From: a virus
Direction: 5' to 3' (one strand)
Length of the DNA stretch: 34,442 bases
IMG/VR virus record: IMGVR_UViG_3300031566_000204
Span: 1 to 34,442 of that record
Position 1 is the stretch's first letter, and each line of letters begins with the position of its first letter. The translations under genes and the position numbers were made by a program. This document shows, in pieces, positions 1-34,386 of the stretch. The notes beneath the pieces are model-generated. The model was not told the origin of the DNA. It ran no database searches and saw only the letters and a program-made list of their open reading frames with translations.

Positions 1-217
1 AAAAATTTTGCTCGGTAAAGTTATTATATGCAAAAATACCGCCCAGTTTGGCTACTAATGCGTCTTTTTTAATCTGTGCCATAATTTCTGCCTCTTTGGC
101 AAATTTAATGCAAAATTCGCATTTTCCGTCCAATAAAACTAAATTATGCCCGCATTTATCACACCACTTTGGCTCTTTAATCTTAAGAGGGATATTTGTT
201 TTCAACTGGTTTTGCAT
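1..217 (-). CDS. DnaC-like helicase loader, N-terminal part (cut by window edge)
   Basis: Only the first 72 or so residues are present; the gene runs off the left edge. The ATG at 217 follows a GAGGTAGGAT ribosome-binding stretch and lies inside the 3' end of the initiator gene, so the two are translationally coupled. The visible part holds a zinc ribbon (CDKCG, then CEFC about 15 residues later) and then LGGIFAYNNFTEQNF. A zinc ribbon followed by an AYxxFT-type segment is typical of the N-terminus of phage DnaC/IstB-like AAA+ helicase loaders. The ATPase motifs would lie outside the window. The role, loading replicative helicase at the phage origin, is inferred from this motif and from the position after a replisome-organiser-like gene. 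Confidence 0.6.
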   Translation of the reverse strand, partial: MQNQLKTNIPLKIKEPKWCDKCGHNLVLLDGKCEFCIKFAKEAEIMAQIKKDALVAKLGGIFAYNNFTEQNF

Positions 218-947
218 ATCCTACCTCATTATTTTTATTTTTAAAATTTTCCTTCAGGGCAAAAAGCCCCTGCCACTGATTGCCGATAGATTGCTCTACT
301 ATCTTTTTGGCTACGGATATATCCGTATTACTTAACTTCAATAGATTTTTATAAGCACTTTGTACGCTCATTTTGGATTTAAACGGCTTTTTTATTTCCT
401 TTCGGTATCTCAACCATTTGGAAAACAAATCTTTAAAATCTACGTTTTCTATAAAAGACAAATCAAATTCTTTTTTAAAGGGGGTAGGGGGTTTATTATT
501 ATCTTCTCTATTCTCTTCTACTCTACTCTTATCTACTCTACTCTTAGGGGGAGTAGCTCCGTACTTACTCCGCACCTGCTCTGTACTTACTCCGCACCTG
601 TTTTTCATAGGGGATTTTCTTTTTTTTTGTTTAGTTTTATAGCGTCCACGTAAAAATTCTCCCGAATAATCCAACCAGTCGTGTAGCATTAAATTTTCGT
701 CAACGAAACCAGCTTCCTGCAAACTTTGGAGTAGGTTCGGAGTTACTATGGAGCTAATCCGTACCGCATCATATATCTGTTTTTCTGTATATTTTGAAAG
801 GTCTCCGTCATCGGCATAATCTAACGCCCAACTCCAAAGAAATACTAAAACTCCACAGGTTTGGTGAGTATCTTTTTTTAGCAACTCTGCTAATTTAAAA
901 AGTTTCGGGTGATTAATTAGGGTTTGATGTAGTTTTATCCACGCCAT
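183..947 (-). CDS. Phage replication initiator / replisome organiser-like protein
   Basis: A 254-aa protein starting at the ATG at 947 (MAWIKLHQ), which has AAGGAC seven bases upstream; a longer in-frame TTG start is less likely. The N-terminal ~110 residues (MAWIKLHQTLINHPK, then VFLWSWALDYADDGDLS) have the look of the winged-helix N-terminus of phage replisome organisers. A charged, low-complexity linker rich in K, R, E and N follows. The C-terminal ~85 residues (FSKWLRYRKEIKKPFKS to NQWQGLFALK) match the recurring C-terminal domain of such initiators. It probably binds the origin and recruits the loader encoded next. The linker DNA carries direct repeats that look like an origin. The family is recognised by pattern, so the exact family is uncertain. 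Confidence 0.65.
   Translation of the reverse strand: MAWIKLHQTLINHPKLFKLAELLKKDTHQTCGVLVFLWSWALDYADDGDLSKYTEKQIYDAVRISSIVTPNLLQSLQEAGFVDENLMLHDWLDYSGEFLRGRYKTKQKKRKSPMKNRCGVSTEQVRSKYGATPPKSRVDKSRVEENREDNNKPPTPFKKEFDLSFIENVDFKDLFSKWLRYRKEIKKPFKSKMSVQSAYKNLLKLSNTDISVAKKIVEQSIGNQWQGLFALKENFKNKNNEVGYAKPVENKYPS
517..546. repeat. 15-bp tandem direct repeat (2 copies) in the initiator gene
   Basis: Two adjacent perfect copies of TCTACTCTACTCTTA (plus strand) at 517-531 and 532-546. They are read in frame (KSRVD, KSRVE) in the linker of the initiator. An AT-rich stretch lies to the left (about 490-500). Possibly part of a replication origin. Confidence 0.7.
561..600. repeat. Iteron-like 18-bp direct repeats, 22-bp period
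   Basis: GTACTTACTCCGCACCTG occurs perfectly at 561-578 and again at 583-600. The 22-bp period is not a multiple of three, so the two copies are translated in different frames (CGVST versus QVRSKY). Selection on protein sequence therefore cannot explain the identity. The position in the middle of a replication initiator gene is that of the lambda origin inside gene O. Confidence 0.65.
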
Positions 948-1095
948 TATTTTGTCCTTGTCTTTGTCCGTTAGCAATTTGCCAACATTTTTTACGGATT
1001 TTGTCTACAGCAGTATCAGGCAAGCCAAAAGCTTCCACTATATCTAAAACTGATTTTATTATTTGCGATTGTGTTTCTTGTGGGTGTTCTACCAT
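913..1095 (-). CDS. Small hypothetical protein leading the replication operon
   Basis: A 60-aa protein with ATG at 1095, preceded by AAGGAC eight bases upstream, the same type of site used by the next gene. Its 3' end overlaps the start of the initiator gene by 35 bp, implying translational coupling. It has one predicted helical N-terminal half (SQIIKSVLDIVEAFGLPDTAVDKI) and a polar, Gln/Asn-rich tail. I do not recognise a family. It is the first gene behind the TTGACA/TAGAAT promoter. Confidence 0.5.
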   Translation of the reverse strand: MVEHPQETQSQIIKSVLDIVEAFGLPDTAVDKIRKKCWQIANGQRQGQNNGVDKTTSNPN

Positions 1096-1127
1096 TGTCT
1101 TTGTCCTTGTCTTTTACTACTTACCAA

Positions 1128-1157
1128 ATTCTAACAAACTGTTTATTTCTTTGTCAA
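1128..1157 (-). promoter_or_regulatory. Sigma70-type promoter of the replication operon
   Basis: On the minus strand, TTGACA (1157-1152), an 18-bp spacer, and TAGAAT (1133-1128). It lies just downstream of an intrinsic terminator and about 33 bp before the first replication gene, which makes it the likely promoter for the initiator and loader genes. Confidence 0.65.
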
Positions 1158-1161
1158 GCTA

Positions 1162-1187
1162 AATAAAAGGCGGCTGTTACACCGCCC
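1162..1187 (-). terminator. Intrinsic terminator after the recombination genes
   Basis: On the minus strand, GGCGG (1186-1182) and CCGCC (1173-1169) pair around a short loop and are followed by TTTTATTT. It starts 8 bp after the stop of the 214-aa gene and separates the recombination transcript from the replication promoter. Confidence 0.65.
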
Positions 1188-1193
1188 CCTAAG

Positions 1194-1838
1194 TTATCTT
1201 ACCGAAGTTGAAACATTTGATACTGCTTTAACGCCGGGTATTTTAAGATTTTCTTTTGATACCTGCGCCAATTTATTTAATGCAGGCATATTTGGCAATA
1301 CTAATTCGGGAATAACCTTACCTGATGCAATGGCTTTGCATAATGCCACTATGTCGGTAACCTCTGCGGACCATCTCGTAGTATGTGAAACTCCGACAGG
1401 AGCAGATACTTTGGTTTGGACCGGGGCGGTAACAGGTGGCAATACAACTGGTGATCCTGTTTTCTCTGCCTTTTTTTCTGCTTTTTTAATTTCTTTTTCC
1501 CGGGCTTTTGCCTCTACTTCTGCTATTTCGGCAAGCCGTCTATTTTCCACTTGTACCCAAATACCTATTTTTTGGCGGATAATATTTTCAGAATTTTCTA
1601 CAGGTTGAAGGAAATTATCCCGCAAATTCCTTGCCTCGTCATACGCTTTTTTAGCAGATGACACGGCAGGTTTAAAAGTTTCATTAATACTTACTCGCAT
1701 TGACTTGATGTCTTTTAAAAACAAAGTAGCAGATATATTGCTTTTTTCGTCGGCAATAGTTAGCGCTTCCACTTTTTCAATTAGCGAATTACTTTGTTTT
1801 TCTAGTTCCTGTTTTTTTTCGTTTGATACTATTTCCAT
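1194..1838 (-). CDS. Coiled-coil protein of the phage recombination cluster
   Basis: A 214-aa protein with ATG at 1838 and a GGAGGAGT ribosome-binding site. Residues 1-120 are highly charged and helical (coiled coil), including a KEIKKAEKKAEK stretch. A Pro/Val-rich hinge (VLPPVTAPVQTKVSAPV) leads to a C-terminal domain ending LPNMPALNKLAQ then IPGVKAVSNVS. This C-terminal pattern recurs in phage proteins encoded next to annealing proteins and exonucleases, usually left as hypothetical. It is the last gene of the transcript and is followed by a terminator. Its function is unknown; a helper role in recombination is inferred from position only. Confidence 0.55.
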   Translation of the reverse strand: MEIVSNEKKQELEKQSNSLIEKVEALTIADEKSNISATLFLKDIKSMRVSINETFKPAVSSAKKAYDEARNLRDNFLQPVENSENIIRQKIGIWVQVENRRLAEIAEVEAKAREKEIKKAEKKAEKTGSPVVLPPVTAPVQTKVSAPVGVSHTTRWSAEVTDIVALCKAIASGKVIPELVLPNMPALNKLAQVSKENLKIPGVKAVSNVSTSVR

Positions 1839-1858
1839 TTTTTTACTCCTCCGTTTTT

Positions 1859-2446
1859 TTATTTTACATACCCATACATTTTCTTAACATTATGACTGGC
1901 CCAAAGACTTAAAAACTCCGTCCAGTCAGTGGGATTATCGTGCCATTCTACTTTGTACCCTGTGGGCGAAAGGTACAAGCCCATTCTACGCCATTTGCGT
2001 TTACTTTCTTGTTCAATTAGCTTTAAATAAGCGGCGGTTTGCCAACAATAACTATGCTCTTTTGCTCCTGTTTTAATGTCAACCATTATGCCCTGTCTGC
2101 CTATTTCTGCTAACTTATCTAAAGTTCCTGCATACAAGTAAATACCGTGATACCGTCTTACTTCGTTTTGCAATACTTTTAGCTTTAATTCTTTTTTTGC
2201 CAAAATATAGCTTTCAAGGTATGGCATATCTACTGCGCTCACCGTTGCCATATCTAGCCTGCCTTCATCATAATACTGACAAGCTAGATGTACTCTAGTG
2301 CCACGCTCGGCCGCATCACAAGTTCCAAACTGCCATAAACCTAATTCAGCTTTTAGAATTTGAGTAACGCTATCAAGGCGTTTGCCTTCGGGAGTTTCGT
2401 AAATGTGCCCTATTGGCTCAAAGTATGGCTCGTAGATTTTTGTCAT
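1859..2446 (-). CDS. PD-(D/E)XK exonuclease (RecB/Cas4-like)
   Basis: A 195-aa protein with the motifs of a PD-(D/E)XK nuclease: GTRVH (His53), AGTLDKL (Asp110), VDIKTG (Asp123-x-Lys125) and a QTAAY box (Gln136, Tyr140) typical of the RecB-like and lambda-exonuclease-like group. All predicted catalytic residues are present. It lies directly downstream of a putative annealing protein, the usual exonuclease plus annealase pairing, in which the nuclease resects double-stranded ends for single-strand annealing. The start at ATG 2446 has only a weak ribosome-binding site and is 12 bp after the previous stop, so translation is probably coupled. Confidence 0.8.
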   Translation of the reverse strand: MTKIYEPYFEPIGHIYETPEGKRLDSVTQILKAELGLWQFGTCDAAERGTRVHLACQYYDEGRLDMATVSAVDMPYLESYILAKKELKLKVLQNEVRRYHGIYLYAGTLDKLAEIGRQGIMVDIKTGAKEHSYCWQTAAYLKLIEQESKRKWRRMGLYLSPTGYKVEWHDNPTDWTEFLSLWASHNVKKMYGYVK

Positions 2447-2457
2447 TTTTATACCAA

Positions 2458-3408
2458 TTAAGCGTCAATATCAGATGTTACAATTATGGAATTTATAAAA
2501 TGGTAAACATTTCCTTTAAATTCCGATGCCGATACTGTTATTTCCACTTCTTGACCGACAGAGTTTTTCATAGTTTCAATAATTTCATTTTTAGATATAT
2601 TGCAAATATAATTCTCTCCGTCAATTTCAATACCGCAAGTTTTCTTTCCTTCTTTTGCCTCTAAAAAACGCTTGTTTATACCGACAATTTTTTCATTATC
2701 TTTGGCAACTGGTCTAGGCGTTGACGGTTTTTCTTTTTGTGCGGGCGTAGTTGTTGCCTGCCCCGGTACGTTTGCCATATCCTCAATATCCTGCGTGAAA
2801 ATATCACTTGCGGCTGTAGCTGACAATATACCGTCAATGAAAGCGCGCTTTTTTGCCATTTTAAGCACAGTATTATAAACATCTGCAATATCTGGGTTCT
2901 CTGTTTTTTCGGTTGTAAGATACTTTACCCAATGCCATTTGCCATCAACATTTTTCATACCATAACCGCTTTTTCTGTATTCGGATTTGCGTTCTTTTGC
3001 ATCGGTAGGTATCTTTTCGTCTGTTACTTCATAATCAGATACGTTGCGATATCTATATTTACTTTCCATAGTTGAGCAACTTCCAATTCCAGTCGCTAAC
3101 TCCTCTCCGTTGCAATTAAGGATATGACAATAAACGTTGTAGTCTCTATGCCCATTTCCCATATCGGTAATTGTAATATCCGATATGTTGTTAATTACAG
3201 GGCGAAGTTTAAATGTCATCGCCAATTTTTCTGCCCCCGATTTTAACAATGTTGGCTTTTTACCGCATCCAGTTATAACTCCGTAATGTTGGTCTTTTTG
3301 CATCACAGCATTCATAACTTCTTGAATTAAGTGAACTTGCGACTTAACCGCAACCGCACTCAATGGCGCATCTTTAACTACTGCTACTTCATTTTTTTGT
3401 TCGGTCAT
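2458..3408 (-). CDS. Putative phage single-strand annealing / recombination protein
   Basis: A 316-aa protein beginning at ATG 3408 (MTEQKNEVAV) behind GGAGGAAG; an upstream in-frame extension to 3516 is unlikely because it runs through another small gene in a different frame. The N-terminal segment QKDQHYGVITGCGKKPTLLK followed by SGAEKLAMTFKLRP is a strongly recurring motif (HYGxIPGCGxKPxLxKxGAEKL) in phage proteins encoded beside exonucleases. The C-terminal ~75 residues, after a Pro/Thr/Lys linker, may form a small OB-like domain. The role as annealing or ssDNA-binding protein is inferred from the neighbouring exonuclease; I cannot assign it to RecT, Erf or Rad52 families from sequence alone. 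Confidence 0.6.
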   Translation of the reverse strand: MTEQKNEVAVVKDAPLSAVAVKSQVHLIQEVMNAVMQKDQHYGVITGCGKKPTLLKSGAEKLAMTFKLRPVINNISDITITDMGNGHRDYNVYCHILNCNGEELATGIGSCSTMESKYRYRNVSDYEVTDEKIPTDAKERKSEYRKSGYGMKNVDGKWHWVKYLTTEKTENPDIADVYNTVLKMAKKRAFIDGILSATAASDIFTQDIEDMANVPGQATTTPAQKEKPSTPRPVAKDNEKIVGINKRFLEAKEGKKTCGIEIDGENYICNISKNEIIETMKNSVGQEVEITVSASEFKGNVYHFINSIIVTSDIDA

Positions 3409-3433
3409 TTTTACTTCCTCCGTTTTTTTTATT

Positions 3434-3613
3434 TTATTTATTCTCAAGTTCAAAAATACTACGCTCAATAGACGCCAACGGTTTACTGCCTGCCAAATAG
3501 CGATATATCGTACCACTTCTAACTCTCAACATATCAGCCGTTGCCTCAAATCCGTTCTTTTTGATAATTCTTTTTAGCGCAGTTAAAGTTTTTCTGCTTA
3601 TTTTTTTTGTCAT
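3434..3613 (-). CDS. Small helix-turn-helix regulator (59 aa)
   Basis: ATG at 3613 with AGGAG seven bases upstream, first gene behind the promoter at 3642-3670. The 59-aa product is basic at the N-terminus (MTKKISRKTLTALKRIIKKN) and holds a helix-turn-helix pattern, FEATADML-RVRSGTIYRYLAG, close to the ATAxxLGVSxxTIYRYL pattern of Cro/CI-like and Fis-like regulators. Its short length fits a Cro-like or autoregulator protein. It may bind the motif shared by its own promoter and the promoter at 8286-8314; this is inference. The stop lies 25 bp before the annealing-protein gene, so both are co-transcribed. Confidence 0.65.
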   Translation of the reverse strand: MTKKISRKTLTALKRIIKKNGFEATADMLRVRSGTIYRYLAGSKPLASIERSIFELENK

Positions 3614-3641
3614 AAATTAACTCCTATTTTTTTATTGGTAA

Positions 3642-3670
3642 AGTGTACCATTTGTGATACAGTTTGTCAA
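3642..3670 (-). promoter_or_regulatory. Sigma70-type promoter of the HTH-recombination operon, with candidate operator
   Basis: On the minus strand, TTGACA (3670-3665), 17-bp spacer, TACACT (3647-3642), about 29 bp before the HTH gene. The spacer and -10 are covered by GTGTACCATTTGTGATACA (plus strand, 3643-3661), nearly the same as a motif in the promoter at 8286-8314 but in opposite orientation. Confidence 0.7.
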
Positions 3671-3686
3671 ATTTTCTTATTGAAAT

Positions 3687-3714
3687 CCCGCCCCCCTTTT
3701 TAAAGAGGGACGGG
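3687..3714 (-). terminator. Strong hairpin, probable terminator of the middle operon
   Basis: On the minus strand CCCGTCCCTCTTT pairs with AAAGGGGGGCGGG over about 13 bp (two U-G wobbles) with a very small loop. It follows the methyltransferase stop by 15 bp and precedes the next promoter. The tail (ATTTCAATAAG) is not a clean U-tract, so efficiency is uncertain. Confidence 0.5.
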
Positions 3715-3729
3715 GTTTAACATAAAATA

Positions 3730-4245
3730 CTACTTAATTACTTTAAGCAATATATTTATGTTTCGTGCAGGAAACATAAAGGCAAAATACCGTTCCCACA
3801 TATCAGCAGAAATTGCATAAAGCAGTCTACCGATTAAACTTGGTAAACCTTTGCCAAAATACAATTTTCTATGCACAAGTTGAAATAACTTTTTTTGCCC
3901 ATAATGCCCTTCGTAAAGAATACTAAAAGCATTCTGTCCGAAATGGAATTTGTGGCTTAAATCATTCCAACTTTGATACGAGGAATAATGAGGCGTTGTA
4001 ATTTCTATTATGGCCCCACTTTTGCAGCACCGGTGCATTTCTTTAAGAACTTGCATCGGATCGCTCAAGTGTTCTATAATATGCTCGCATACGAACCCTT
4101 CCAGTTCGTTATCCTCAAAAGGATAAGGAAATACATTACAGTCGTGCATAATGTTTGGATTTACACTTGGATTATTATCCATAGTACCAATAATTCCCTT
4201 CTCTTTTATTTCGCCCGAACCGATACTAATTATTTTCGGTTTCAT
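3730..4245 (-). CDS. SAM-dependent methyltransferase (Methyltransf_11-like)
   Basis: A 171-aa protein with ATG at 4245 and AGGAG five bases upstream. It carries the core of a class I methyltransferase: ISIGSGEIKEKG (shortened, degenerate motif I), then MDNNPSVNPNIMHDCN, then FPYPFEDNELEGFVCEHIIEHLSD and VLKEMHRCCKSGAIIEITTPHYSS. This FPF.D..FD.V...HVLEH pattern is typical of type-11 methyltransferases acting on small molecules or surface glycans. The N-terminus is short relative to full-length relatives. It is the last gene of the middle operon. The substrate is unknown; host-surface or small-molecule modification is a guess, and DNA methylation is unlikely because no DPPY/NPPY-type motif is seen. 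Confidence 0.65.
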   Translation of the reverse strand: MKPKIISIGSGEIKEKGIIGTMDNNPSVNPNIMHDCNVFPYPFEDNELEGFVCEHIIEHLSDPMQVLKEMHRCCKSGAIIEITTPHYSSYQSWNDLSHKFHFGQNAFSILYEGHYGQKKLFQLVHRKLYFGKGLPSLIGRLLYAISADMWERYFAFMFPARNINILLKVIK

Positions 4246-4550
4246 TTTGTCTCCTTTTTTGTTTTCACTATGCCTAATTCCCCTGTGATTAGACTTTCCC
4301 CAGTGGCAGGCAAATTATCAAAATTAGTTTTGTCTTTTAAGATGGCATTTTCTAAATCCACAGGATTGTAATTATAATCAAGATTATCATCCATTAATTT
4401 ACGCACATTCTTAAACGGGTCTTTGTCGGTTATGTAAACCTGTTTAATTTCACCGCCACTAACTTTTTTTCTATTTTCAGCGCTACATTTCATATCGTAA
4501 CACACGGGTATTGTACCATCAATCATTATACCCCACATTTTCTTAAGCAT
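4242..4550 (-). CDS. Hypothetical protein
   Basis: A 102-aa protein, ATG 4550 behind GAGGGCGG, with ATGA-type overlaps at both ends (upstream gene ends at 4550; methyltransferase starts at 4245). The N-terminus MWGIMIDGTIPVCYDMK and a later YITDKDPFKNVRKL stretch are the only notable segments. No transmembrane helix or known motif is seen. The family is not recognised. Confidence 0.5.
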   Translation of the reverse strand: MLKKMWGIMIDGTIPVCYDMKCSAENRKKVSGGEIKQVYITDKDPFKNVRKLMDDNLDYNYNPVDLENAILKDKTNFDNLPATGESLITGELGIVKTKKETK

Positions 4551-4861
4551 TATCCGCCCTCCAGTTGTTTTATTTTGTTTTCGCAGTATTCTCTACCCTC
4601 AACCTCATTAAATATACTAGCCCCAAGTTCTTCAATCATATCTGCATACGCCTTTATTTCTCCCCTTTTCTCCGCATCCGCAATGGCTTTGCGTACTTCT
4701 TCAAAAAAAGTACTCATATTTCTTACGATAATACAATTATTTATTGGTTTATCTTTCTCCTCGCATTCGGGATATTGTTTTTTCATACTATCTGAGCAAT
4801 GGAAATCGTTACAAATAAATTTCTTTAACTCCTCAACTTTCTCATCTGCAAATTTAGACAT
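4550..4861 (-). CDS. Hypothetical helical protein with Cys cluster
   Basis: A 103-aa protein from ATG 4861 (MSKFADEKVEEL), chosen because GAGGAGG lies six to seven bases upstream; an in-frame start at 4882 is less likely. Four cysteines lie in the first half (ICNDFHC, PECEEKDKPINNC) and the second half is helical and charged. A small metal-binding fold is possible. Function unknown. Confidence 0.45.
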   Translation of the reverse strand: MSKFADEKVEELKKFICNDFHCSDSMKKQYPECEEKDKPINNCIIVRNMSTFFEEVRKAIADAEKRGEIKAYADMIEELGASIFNEVEGREYCENKIKQLEGG

Positions 4862-5099
4862 TAGATGCCTCCTCAAATCCATCGCAAGTTATTAACCACG
4901 TTGGGTCAAAATTGCAAGGAAATGCAAACCAACCACCCTCAATACCCCTTTTGAAACATTGTATGTTTATTCTTTTTGGTTGCGGGTGTTTACAACTGGA
5001 ATGGCAACTACCAACAACCTCGTCTCTATATTTGCAATCCCAACATTTTTTTTCTTGTTTCTTTACTTTTTTAGTACTTTCAATTATTTTTATCATCAA
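4854..5099 (-). CDS. Cysteine-rich conserved hypothetical protein
   Basis: An 81-aa protein with ATG 5099 or the adjacent ATG 5096, behind GGAGG. It has the pattern CWDCKYRDEVVGSCHSSC then CKHP, and GWFAFPCNFDPTWLITCDGF. A Cys-rich N-terminus followed by GWF.FP.NFDP.WL..CDGF is a recurring architecture of short phage and bacterial proteins with unknown function, presumably zinc-binding. Its stop overlaps the next start by 8 bp. Confidence 0.55.
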   Translation of the reverse strand: MMIKIIESTKKVKKQEKKCWDCKYRDEVVGSCHSSCKHPQPKRINIQCFKRGIEGGWFAFPCNFDPTWLITCDGFEEASNV

Positions 5100-5111
5100 A
5101 CACCTCCCAGT

Positions 5112-5288
5112 TTATTTCATTGGTTCTATAACAATTTTTTTGAAATGTCTAGTACCTTTTGGAATACCTAGTATTGCATACTCTAATGCTTCAAAAATTT
5201 CAGCTTCTATTTTGGAAGTCTTAAATCTATTTGCATACAAATAATCTTTTTTACCTTTACAATTTACTCTAAACACACGATATTTCAT
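5112..5288 (-). CDS. Small hypothetical protein
   Basis: A 58-aa protein from ATG 5288 (MKYRVFRV) behind GGGAGG five bases upstream; an upstream in-frame start is less likely. It begins with a beta-strand-like segment and ends HFKKIVIEPMK. It overlaps the end of the preceding gene by 20 bp. No family recognised. Confidence 0.45.
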   Translation of the reverse strand: MKYRVFRVNCKGKKDYLYANRFKTSKIEAEIFEALEYAILGIPKGTRHFKKIVIEPMK

Positions 5289-5667
5289 AACAACCTCCCA
5301 GTGATTTAATCCTTTTTTCAAGTTCTTGTTTCTGCCTTAAATCCTTGCCACATATTGGACAAAAATTTATTTTAATTTTTTCGGAATGGTCTAGGCATTC
5401 ACTGTCAGTAGGGTCTGCTTTTCGCAAATATCCCCTGTCAATAAATACCCACTCTTTGCGATAATGTAAATTAATACCCTTAACATCTTCTAATTTACAA
5501 AAGCCGTGAAAATCAAGCTCCTCAAATTCTATTAGCGGTTTCTCCTTTTCGCAATAATTACAAAGCATTCCCACCTCCCTTATCCTTTGTTTAAGTTCTT
5601 GTTTTTCTTGTGCATCAAACCGCTTTTTAGCCAGTTCGGCTATTTCAATTAGTGTCAAGGTTGTCAT
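5269..5667 (-). CDS. Zinc-ribbon hypothetical protein
   Basis: A 132-aa protein, ATG 5667 behind GGAGGGG. It carries two CxxC knuckles, CNYC near residue 36 and CPICGKDL near residue 103, which together could form one zinc ribbon around a middle domain with WVFIDRGYLRKA. Its start overlaps the preceding stop by 4 bp (ATGA type). Function unknown; one of several small Cys-rich proteins in this operon. Confidence 0.5.
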   Translation of the reverse strand: MTTLTLIEIAELAKKRFDAQEKQELKQRIREVGMLCNYCEKEKPLIEFEELDFHGFCKLEDVKGINLHYRKEWVFIDRGYLRKADPTDSECLDHSEKIKINFCPICGKDLRQKQELEKRIKSLGGCYEISCV

Positions 5668-10882: not shown

Positions 10883-11088
10883 TAAGTCTCCCTATCCGCA
10901 ATTATTTGCGGGTGTACAAAATCACTTTCAACGTCATCAAAAATATAACCCTTACTATACGTTTTTCCTTCGGTACGTTCCAAAATATCATCGTAACCAT
11001 ATTCGGTTTTTATTTTCTCCGCCATCTCTTGAGATGCTACAATTACGTTTTCTATTTTTCCTTCCTTAATTAAACAAAATATAGCCAT
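10882..11088 (-). CDS. Small tail-fibre-associated protein
   Basis: A 68-aa protein, ATG 11088 behind GGAGGCG. MAIFCLIKEGKIENVIVAS followed by a Gly-rich-free, strand-like body is reminiscent of small proteins encoded next to tail fibres (N-terminal part of fibre-assembly proteins). It lies 3 bp after the glycine-rich adhesin gene. Assignment rests mainly on position. Confidence 0.4.
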   Translation of the reverse strand: MAIFCLIKEGKIENVIVASQEMAEKIKTEYGYDDILERTEGKTYSKGYIFDDVESDFVHPQIIADRET

Positions 11089-11091
11089 AAA

Positions 11092-11793
11092 TTAACGCCT
11101 CCAATAAACTATGCAAATACCTTGTGCTCCTGCTCCCCCCGCATCGCCCGAACCCTCACCACTCGCACCGCCCGCACCATATTTGTTTCCTGCGTTTCCT
11201 GCGCCAATCGTGCCATCTCCACCTTTCCCATCAAATGCACCAAATGCTAATCCACCACCACCACCCGCACCTAAATCAACGCCACTTACACCGCCCCTAG
11301 AGTATAACCAAAATGGAAAATCTGTATTCTGCCTATTATCAACTCCTAATCCGCCATTTATTCCTATAGCGTTGGTTCCACTTCCACCGTTACCGCCAGT
11401 ACTAGCAGCTACTCTTCCACCGCCTCCGCTACCACCGTTTCCCCCGATCCCTGCAGTTCTGTTTCCTGCGTATCCTCCGTAAGCAATTATGTTACTCCCA
11501 AAAGAAGTATCGCTACCGTTACCGCCATCTGCACCGCCTACACCACCTGACCCGCCTGCACCTATTGTAATGATTGTAATGCCCGAAACAAAGATATTTA
11601 CACGTTCTATAATTAAACCTGACCCGCCAGCAACTCCAACACTGCCCGATGAGTCTCCACTACCGCCTCCACCTCCACCTATCATTAAAATGTTATAATA
11701 ATCAACCCCCGATTTAGGCGTAAAACTTCCACTGGAAGTAAATACTTCCGAAAATACTTTGCCAGTAATCATATCAAAAACGTCTATTGCCAT
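11092..11793 (-). CDS. Glycine-rich tail adhesin
   Basis: A 233-aa protein, ATG 11793 behind AGAGG. A short N-terminal sandwich-like region (TGKVFSEVFTSSGSFTPKSG) introduces long glycine-rich tracts (IGGGGGGSGDSSG; GGNGGSGGGG; GAGGGGGLAFG; GGAGAQG) ending in ICIVYWRR. The FTSSG.F+ lead followed by Gly tracts and a terminal (G)..IVRW-type strand is the pattern of phage glycine-rich adhesins, which may form polyglycine II bundles at fibre tips as in S16 gp38. Likely host-binding. The mirror-strand proline-rich frame is a shadow. Confidence 0.65.
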   Translation of the reverse strand: MAIDVFDMITGKVFSEVFTSSGSFTPKSGVDYYNILMIGGGGGGSGDSSGSVGVAGGSGLIIERVNIFVSGITIITIGAGGSGGVGGADGGNGSDTSFGSNIIAYGGYAGNRTAGIGGNGGSGGGGRVAASTGGNGGSGTNAIGINGGLGVDNRQNTDFPFWLYSRGGVSGVDLGAGGGGGLAFGAFDGKGGDGTIGAGNAGNKYGAGGASGEGSGDAGGAGAQGICIVYWRR

Positions 11794-34176: not shown

Positions 34177-34386
34177 TTACCTGTCAGGTTTTAGCTTTTT
34201 AAGGGCTTTAATCCTTGTATGACCGCCTAGTATTATAAAATCATTATCTACTATTATGGGGGCAATATAGCCGTTCTTTTTAATGCTATCGCATACGTAA
34301 TCAACTGCCTTGTCGTTTTTGCGTGGATTGCGCTCGTAAGGTTTAATCTTATTTAATGCGATATTTTTTAAGTGTTCTTTTTTCAT
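34177..34386 (-). CDS. ParB/Srx-like domain fragment, truncated
   Basis: A 69-aa reading frame, ATG 34386. The sequence IKPYERNPRKNDKAVDYVC and KKNGYIAPIIVDNDFIILGGHTRIKALKKL is the N-terminal part of the ParB-like nuclease/Srx-type domain (NPR.ND..V, then II..GHTR..A...L), which in phages is usually fused to a DNA methyltransferase or continues by another 30 residues. Here TAA stops it at LKPDR; the frame then reads KGEVIKIT before the next ATG, as if continuing the domain. The real product may be truncated or non-functional. The 56 bp upstream have no good ribosome-binding site. Confidence 0.55.
   Translation of the reverse strand: MKKEHLKNIALNKIKPYERNPRKNDKAVDYVCDSIKKNGYIAPIIVDNDFIILGGHTRIKALKKLKPDR

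Follow-up and report, generated by a model that had tools for sequence, protein, structure and literature searches.

A putative replication origin with 11-bp-spaced iterons and a 5-bp array inside a phage initiator gene

The repeats located within the replication initiator gene of a 34,442-bp linear virus record (the window, that is, the whole stretch of DNA analysed here) probably constitute the replication origin of this phage, embedded in the DNA that encodes the linker of its own initiator. We put the probability of this reading, which is based on comparative sequence analysis, at about 0.84. A candidate origin inside the initiator gene had been proposed in an earlier note on the same DNA, and the proposal is now well supported by the identification of the initiator and of an adjacent helicase loader, by the repeats in related initiators and by the layout of the replication gene of phage Tuc2009.

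The initiator gene and its repeats

The gene harbouring the repeats matches phrog_9474 (replication initiation) with an E value of 2.8e-33 in a profile search, together with four other replication families, in agreement with the function previously assigned to it. According to the AlphaFold model of the 254-aa form, the protein is composed of a confidently predicted helical N-terminal domain (residues about 1-111) and a helical C-terminal domain, joined by an unstructured linker (about 118-168); the pLDDT is mostly above 90 at residues 11-100 and about 50 at residues 120-160. The N-terminal domain gave weak matches in a fold search (best Z 4.3), some of which are winged-helix regulators, and the C-terminus shows a weak profile match to DnaD (E 0.009). 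Directly downstream lies the helicase loader gene, whose fragment in the window shares 42% identity (E 9e-15) with L107 2243-2932, a DnaC-like loader of phrog_50. An initiator-encoding gene, a loader gene directly downstream and direct repeats in linker-coding DNA that are unexplained by the protein sequence are characteristic of origins embedded in phage initiator genes of the lambda O or Tuc2009 Rep type, and each of them is found here.

Table 1. Features of the putative origin and its surroundings (window positions)
Feature	Position	Strand	Remarks
Helicase-loader gene, DnaC-like, N-terminal part, cut by window edge	2..217	(-)	assigned by similarity
Replication initiator gene	183..977	(-)	264 aa from TTG 977; 254 aa from ATG 947
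Four putative iterons GT[GA]C[GA]GAG, 8 bp, exact 11-bp steps	557..597	(-)	597-590, 586-579, 575-568, 564-557
Joint GGAGCTAC, overlaps last iteron	553..560	(-)	counterpart in homologues: GGGGCTAC
5-bp array, nine AGANN units, encodes KSRVDKSRVEENRED	500..544	(-)	highest lag-5 score in the window
C-tract CCCCCTACCCCC, after the array	480..491	(-)	only such block in the window; recoding p 0.009

Two exact 18-bp direct repeats (561-578 and 583-600, spacing 22 bp) and an exact 15-bp tandem pair (517-531 and 532-546) are present precisely where they had been reported, and they make up two of the three exact repeats of at least 14 bp at a spacing of no more than 200 bp in the window. The earlier description could be refined in that the 18-bp pair resolves into four 11-bp-spaced 8-mers on the coding strand, the 15-bp pair forms part of a nine-unit AGANN array, and a C-tract had been missed. 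The 22-bp tandem copies differ at one base, and the 8-mers are the best family at 11-bp steps in the window (p<=0.001 compared with synonymous recoding). On the coding strand the iterons are followed by the array and then by the C-tract; together with the joint, these elements encode initiator residues about 117-156, all within the predicted disordered linker.

Two null models were used, namely first-order Markov simulations of the window (n=60) and 5,000 synonymous recodings of the initiator gene. A run of 18 bp was seen in 1/60 of the simulations, in which the longest run was 12.5 on average. Since 22 is not a multiple of 3, the two 18-bp copies are read in different frames, as noted earlier, and recoding never gives the 22-bp register: at lag 22, the 18-bp run compares with a recoded mean of 5.0 and a maximum of 11 (p<=0.0002). 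The lag-5 score reaches 27, whereas no recoded gene exceeds 25 (p<=0.0002), and the 15-bp pair has a p value of 0.003 against synonymous recoding. All nine wobble bases of the array (9/9) match the motif, with 4.5 expected, and the whole-window maxima at lags 5, 15 and 22 are all located within 480-605. Consequently, none of the iterons, the array and the C-tract is accounted for by the encoded protein.

The GC skew, suggested earlier as a check, is negative in every 1-kb bin; nearly all genes are on the minus strand, and therefore the skew is uninformative as an origin marker. A search of window positions 1-2000 against Rfam families gave no match. A perfect 15-bp direct repeat, TTTGTCCTTGTCTTT, occurs at 951-965 and 1100-1114, near the starts of the initiator, which encodes DKDKDK there, and of a small upstream ORF (913-1095), respectively. 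A short gene at the opposite end of the window (34177-34386, minus strand), close to the terminase genes, encodes a ParB-like domain (phrog_620, E 1e-20). A near-identical phage from another metagenome (L093, L106) shares 94-100% identity over most of window 5664-34442, with sharp mosaic gaps, e.g., around 11080-11740. The near-identical phage G001 has no match to window 1-5663; its contig may end there, and hence it provides no counterexample.

Layout in related initiators

We collected 98 non-redundant initiators, 45 from viral contigs and 53 independent ones from bacterial genomes (Bacillota, Verrucomicrobiota, Chloroflexota and others); they are mutually related, so that the counts given below are not independent trials, although the sets had been thinned and the motif classes are different. 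Compared with 134 control ORFs, which like all controls here are ordinary ORFs of the same loci rather than disordered linkers, the 45 initiators show their main excess of autocorrelation at 5, 10, 15, 20 and 25 bp and at 11, 22 and 33 bp. The 5/11-bp pattern is repeated in the 53 initiators from bacterial genomes, where lags 4, 14, 19 and a few longer ones are modestly raised too, and a lag-5 score of at least 22 is reached by 33/53 of them against 2/168 controls.

The arrangement of the elements is also shared. Within the 100 nt upstream of the array, identity averages 0.425 for lag 11 and 0.385 for lag 22, while it is mostly near 0.25-0.27 at the other lags from 8 to 25 (0.31 at 15 and 0.30 at 18). 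In all genes with high scores for both elements (34/34), the iterons precede the array; the array is located at 0.53 of the gene length. As for the joint, the motif GG[GA]GCTAC is found near the array in 18/73 initiators and never elsewhere in those genes. Of the homologues, 25/73 have a C-tract after the array, compared with 2/557 other pieces of those genes. The linkers of distant initiators contain different peptides (RVDQS, PNLTI, GPDQT) with the same 5-bp DNA rhythm, and even in a phage of 64% GC the AT-type codons are kept in the linker. Phages that retain the initiator without any repeats at this place, which the earlier note had regarded as counterevidence, are not what the DNA-level comparison revealed: the repeats are kept at the same place, and it is the repeat sequence that differs.

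Several searches define how far the motifs themselves could be used. A blind DNA scan for (ACCNN)6 returned at least 120 loci; among the matches listed, 41 fell within ORFs of 170 aa or more read in the sense direction, and 28 of these match phrog_9474. Because many other matches are short or non-coding, the array motif alone is not specific. The exact iteron core GTGCGGAGTAAGTAC was not found in the other initiators, and its search in viral contigs led to five unrelated places; a scan of genome contigs with a single protein gave no match. Another pattern scan, with GTAGANNAGANTAGANNAGANTAGA, produced 81 matches, all of them non-coding (TAG in all three frames), and was discarded.

The array is not universal, since lambda O, TP901-1, 80alpha and Rac YdaU have no 5-bp array. 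Repeats are present in lambda O, TP901-1 and 80alpha, and therefore the array would be one of several solutions. The unit length is not always 5 bp either, as indicated by a relative (G002, L107 2865-3557, minus strand) with a 6-bp AATGCT-type array. Its initiator is a mosaic that shares the C-terminal domain and differs in the N-terminal domain, and it contains 11-bp iterons, six AATG(C/T)T units and then CCCCTACCCC. For 80alpha, the putative origin annotated inside gp20 (L398 4675-4900) has a 3/6-bp TAATAA/TACTAA array, which is closer to the spacing of DnaA-trios. In addition, a 4.6-kb Klebsiella plasmid (L475) is made up mostly of genes for phage immunity and replication (those for a CII-like regulator, a replication protein, an ATP-binding protein and ren), which suggests that phage immunity/replication modules may replicate on their own.

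Selection on the DNA and alternative explanations

A wobble test was applied, in which only the first two codon positions served to define the arrays and the third positions were scored against the motif. This definition was passed by 72/98 initiators and 9/308 controls. In the initiator arrays, 491/542 third positions match the motif, while 208 are expected from the codon usage of those genes; in the controls, 28/51 match and 20 are expected. Substitutions between related pairs fall on NN positions 55 times and on motif positions 34 times (p 3e-5) with one misaligned pair included, and 47 and 21 times (p 1e-6) without it. Many of the NN substitutions alter the amino acid while the array motif stays.

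These results bear on the possibility that the linker peptide, of the RVDKS or PNxT type, is itself selected, e.g., as an interaction or phase-separating tail, with the DNA repeat as its by-product. Fifteen bp correspond to five codons, so that a 5-residue repeat would yield the lag-15 signal that is indeed seen. However, the wobble positions agree with the DNA motif much more often than codon usage would give, one 5-bp rhythm encodes different peptides, and iterons at 11 and 22 bp could not be protein-level repeats; we regard this explanation as the least probable of all. Judged from the sequences, it is rather the peptide repeats (RVDKS, PNxT) that are a by-product of the DNA array. Recent slippage or tandem duplication in a tolerant linker, leaving repeats that have no function, would fit the predicted disorder of the linker and the single difference between the 22-bp copies. 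Nevertheless, slippage in a coding gene should favour units of 3n, and the units of 5 and 11 bp are both frame-shifting; moreover, both periods are found again in distant phages whose sequences differ, and the motif positions are kept while NN changes alter the protein. By the array and wobble analysis, slippage is already largely refuted, and we consider it quite improbable.

The repeats might also be operators through which the initiator autoregulates its transcription, the origin being elsewhere. Iteron-bound initiators often autorepress, and such a role may coexist with that of an origin. On the other hand, the sites are located in the middle of the gene, far from its start, the origins of Tuc2009 and 80alpha have been mapped or annotated at this very place, and the array and the C-tract have no obvious operator role. 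Operators without an origin are thus very improbable, and the replication origin is the reading that we prefer.

Comparison with known origins and a possible mechanism

The closest counterpart is the lactococcal phage Tuc2009, whose origin was mapped by experiment to the rep gene; its Rep2009 protein is reported to bind repeats within the gene encoding it, and these repeats act as ori; initiator binding to the iterons and replication from the segment have been reported for both Tuc2009 and TP901-1 (PMC8965321). The rep gene of Tuc2009 is annotated as containing the origin. As in the window, 11-bp-spaced iterons followed by a 5-bp array are present in its linker, here CAACCAA and then eleven AGGNN-type units (AGGAT AGGAT AGGAG AGGTT ...), whereas the initiator family (phrog_5708), the iteron and the array motif (AGG instead of AGA) are different. 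Of the 11 members of the Tuc2009 family, 9-10, including a satellite phage, combine an AGGNN array with GACAACCAAAT iterons spaced by 11 bp. The replication gene of the streptococcal satellite phage Javan230 (L468 1001-1789) has the Tuc2009-type layout of iterons and 5-bp array.

The analogy with lambda gene O drawn in the earlier note stands for the location in the initiator linker, the iterons and the loader gene next door, but not for the array: the lambda origin has 18-bp iterons at 20-24 bp and an AT-rich region without a 5-bp array (lag-5 score of 19 for lambda O vs. 27 in the window), and the window therefore does not carry a lambda origin proper. In SPP1, gp38 likewise binds direct repeats inside its own gene 38 (oriL), gp39 is the loader, and the repeats adjoin an AT-rich unwinding element (PMC6316719). 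Among bacteria, the basal unwinding system of oriC (DnaA boxes, DnaA-trios and the DnaD recognition element) also places double-strand boxes beside a short-period array read on a single strand (PMC10201434; PMC10797057). However, it employs 3-nt trios and DnaA, while the window has a period of 5 bp, hence no DnaA-trio array, along with a phage initiator and an element that is wholly protein-coding. The ori2 of Vibrio cholerae combines the initiator RctB and its iterons with a repeated 5-nt motif, [G/A]ATCA, in the unwinding element (PMC10797057), although the motif is unrelated and the replicon is that of a host. For an array that, by analogy, a protein would read as single-stranded DNA, both the oriC system, with its DnaA-trios and DnaD recognition element, and the 5-nt repeats of ori2 serve as precedents (PMC10201434; PMC10797057).

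A possible course of initiation could be outlined as follows. The N-terminal domain of the initiator would bind the four iterons, which at 11-bp spacing would lie on one face of the helix, and the resulting complex would open the adjoining 5-bp array. It is probably the C-terminal domain of the initiator or the loader that would then hold one strand of the array in single-stranded form, in steps of 5 nt. The DnaC-like loader from the adjoining gene would place the host helicase on the opened strand, as gene order and the examples of SPP1 and lambda suggest. The C-tract would form the far border and might, speculatively, serve unwinding or priming. GC-rich arrays such as ACCGGACCGG argue that sequence recognition, not low melting, is what matters.

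More broadly, we propose, at even odds, that tailed phages of many hosts share a grammar for origins in initiator genes. In this grammar, iterons would keep an 11-bp register and lead, through a short joint containing GC, to an array of 5-bp units (ACCNN, AGANN, ACANN or AGGNN; one relative has 6-bp AATGCT), after which a C-tract is often found. The array would serve for the sequence-specific recognition of a single strand in steps of 5 nt, as a phage counterpart of the DnaA-trios that works even when GC-rich (ACCGG). A search of the open-access literature found no phage origin described as having such 5-bp arrays.

Most phage origins are unmapped, and the two-period signature, obtained by simple autocorrelation in initiator genes, would locate the origins of thousands of phages and prophages that are still unannotated. 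The puzzling RVDKS and PNxT peptide repeats would be explained as read-outs of the DNA. If the array is indeed read as single-stranded DNA, it would provide a testable code for the way in which phage initiators open DNA and guide helicase loading, comparable to the DnaA-trios with a different step, and present in some phages without an AT-rich element.
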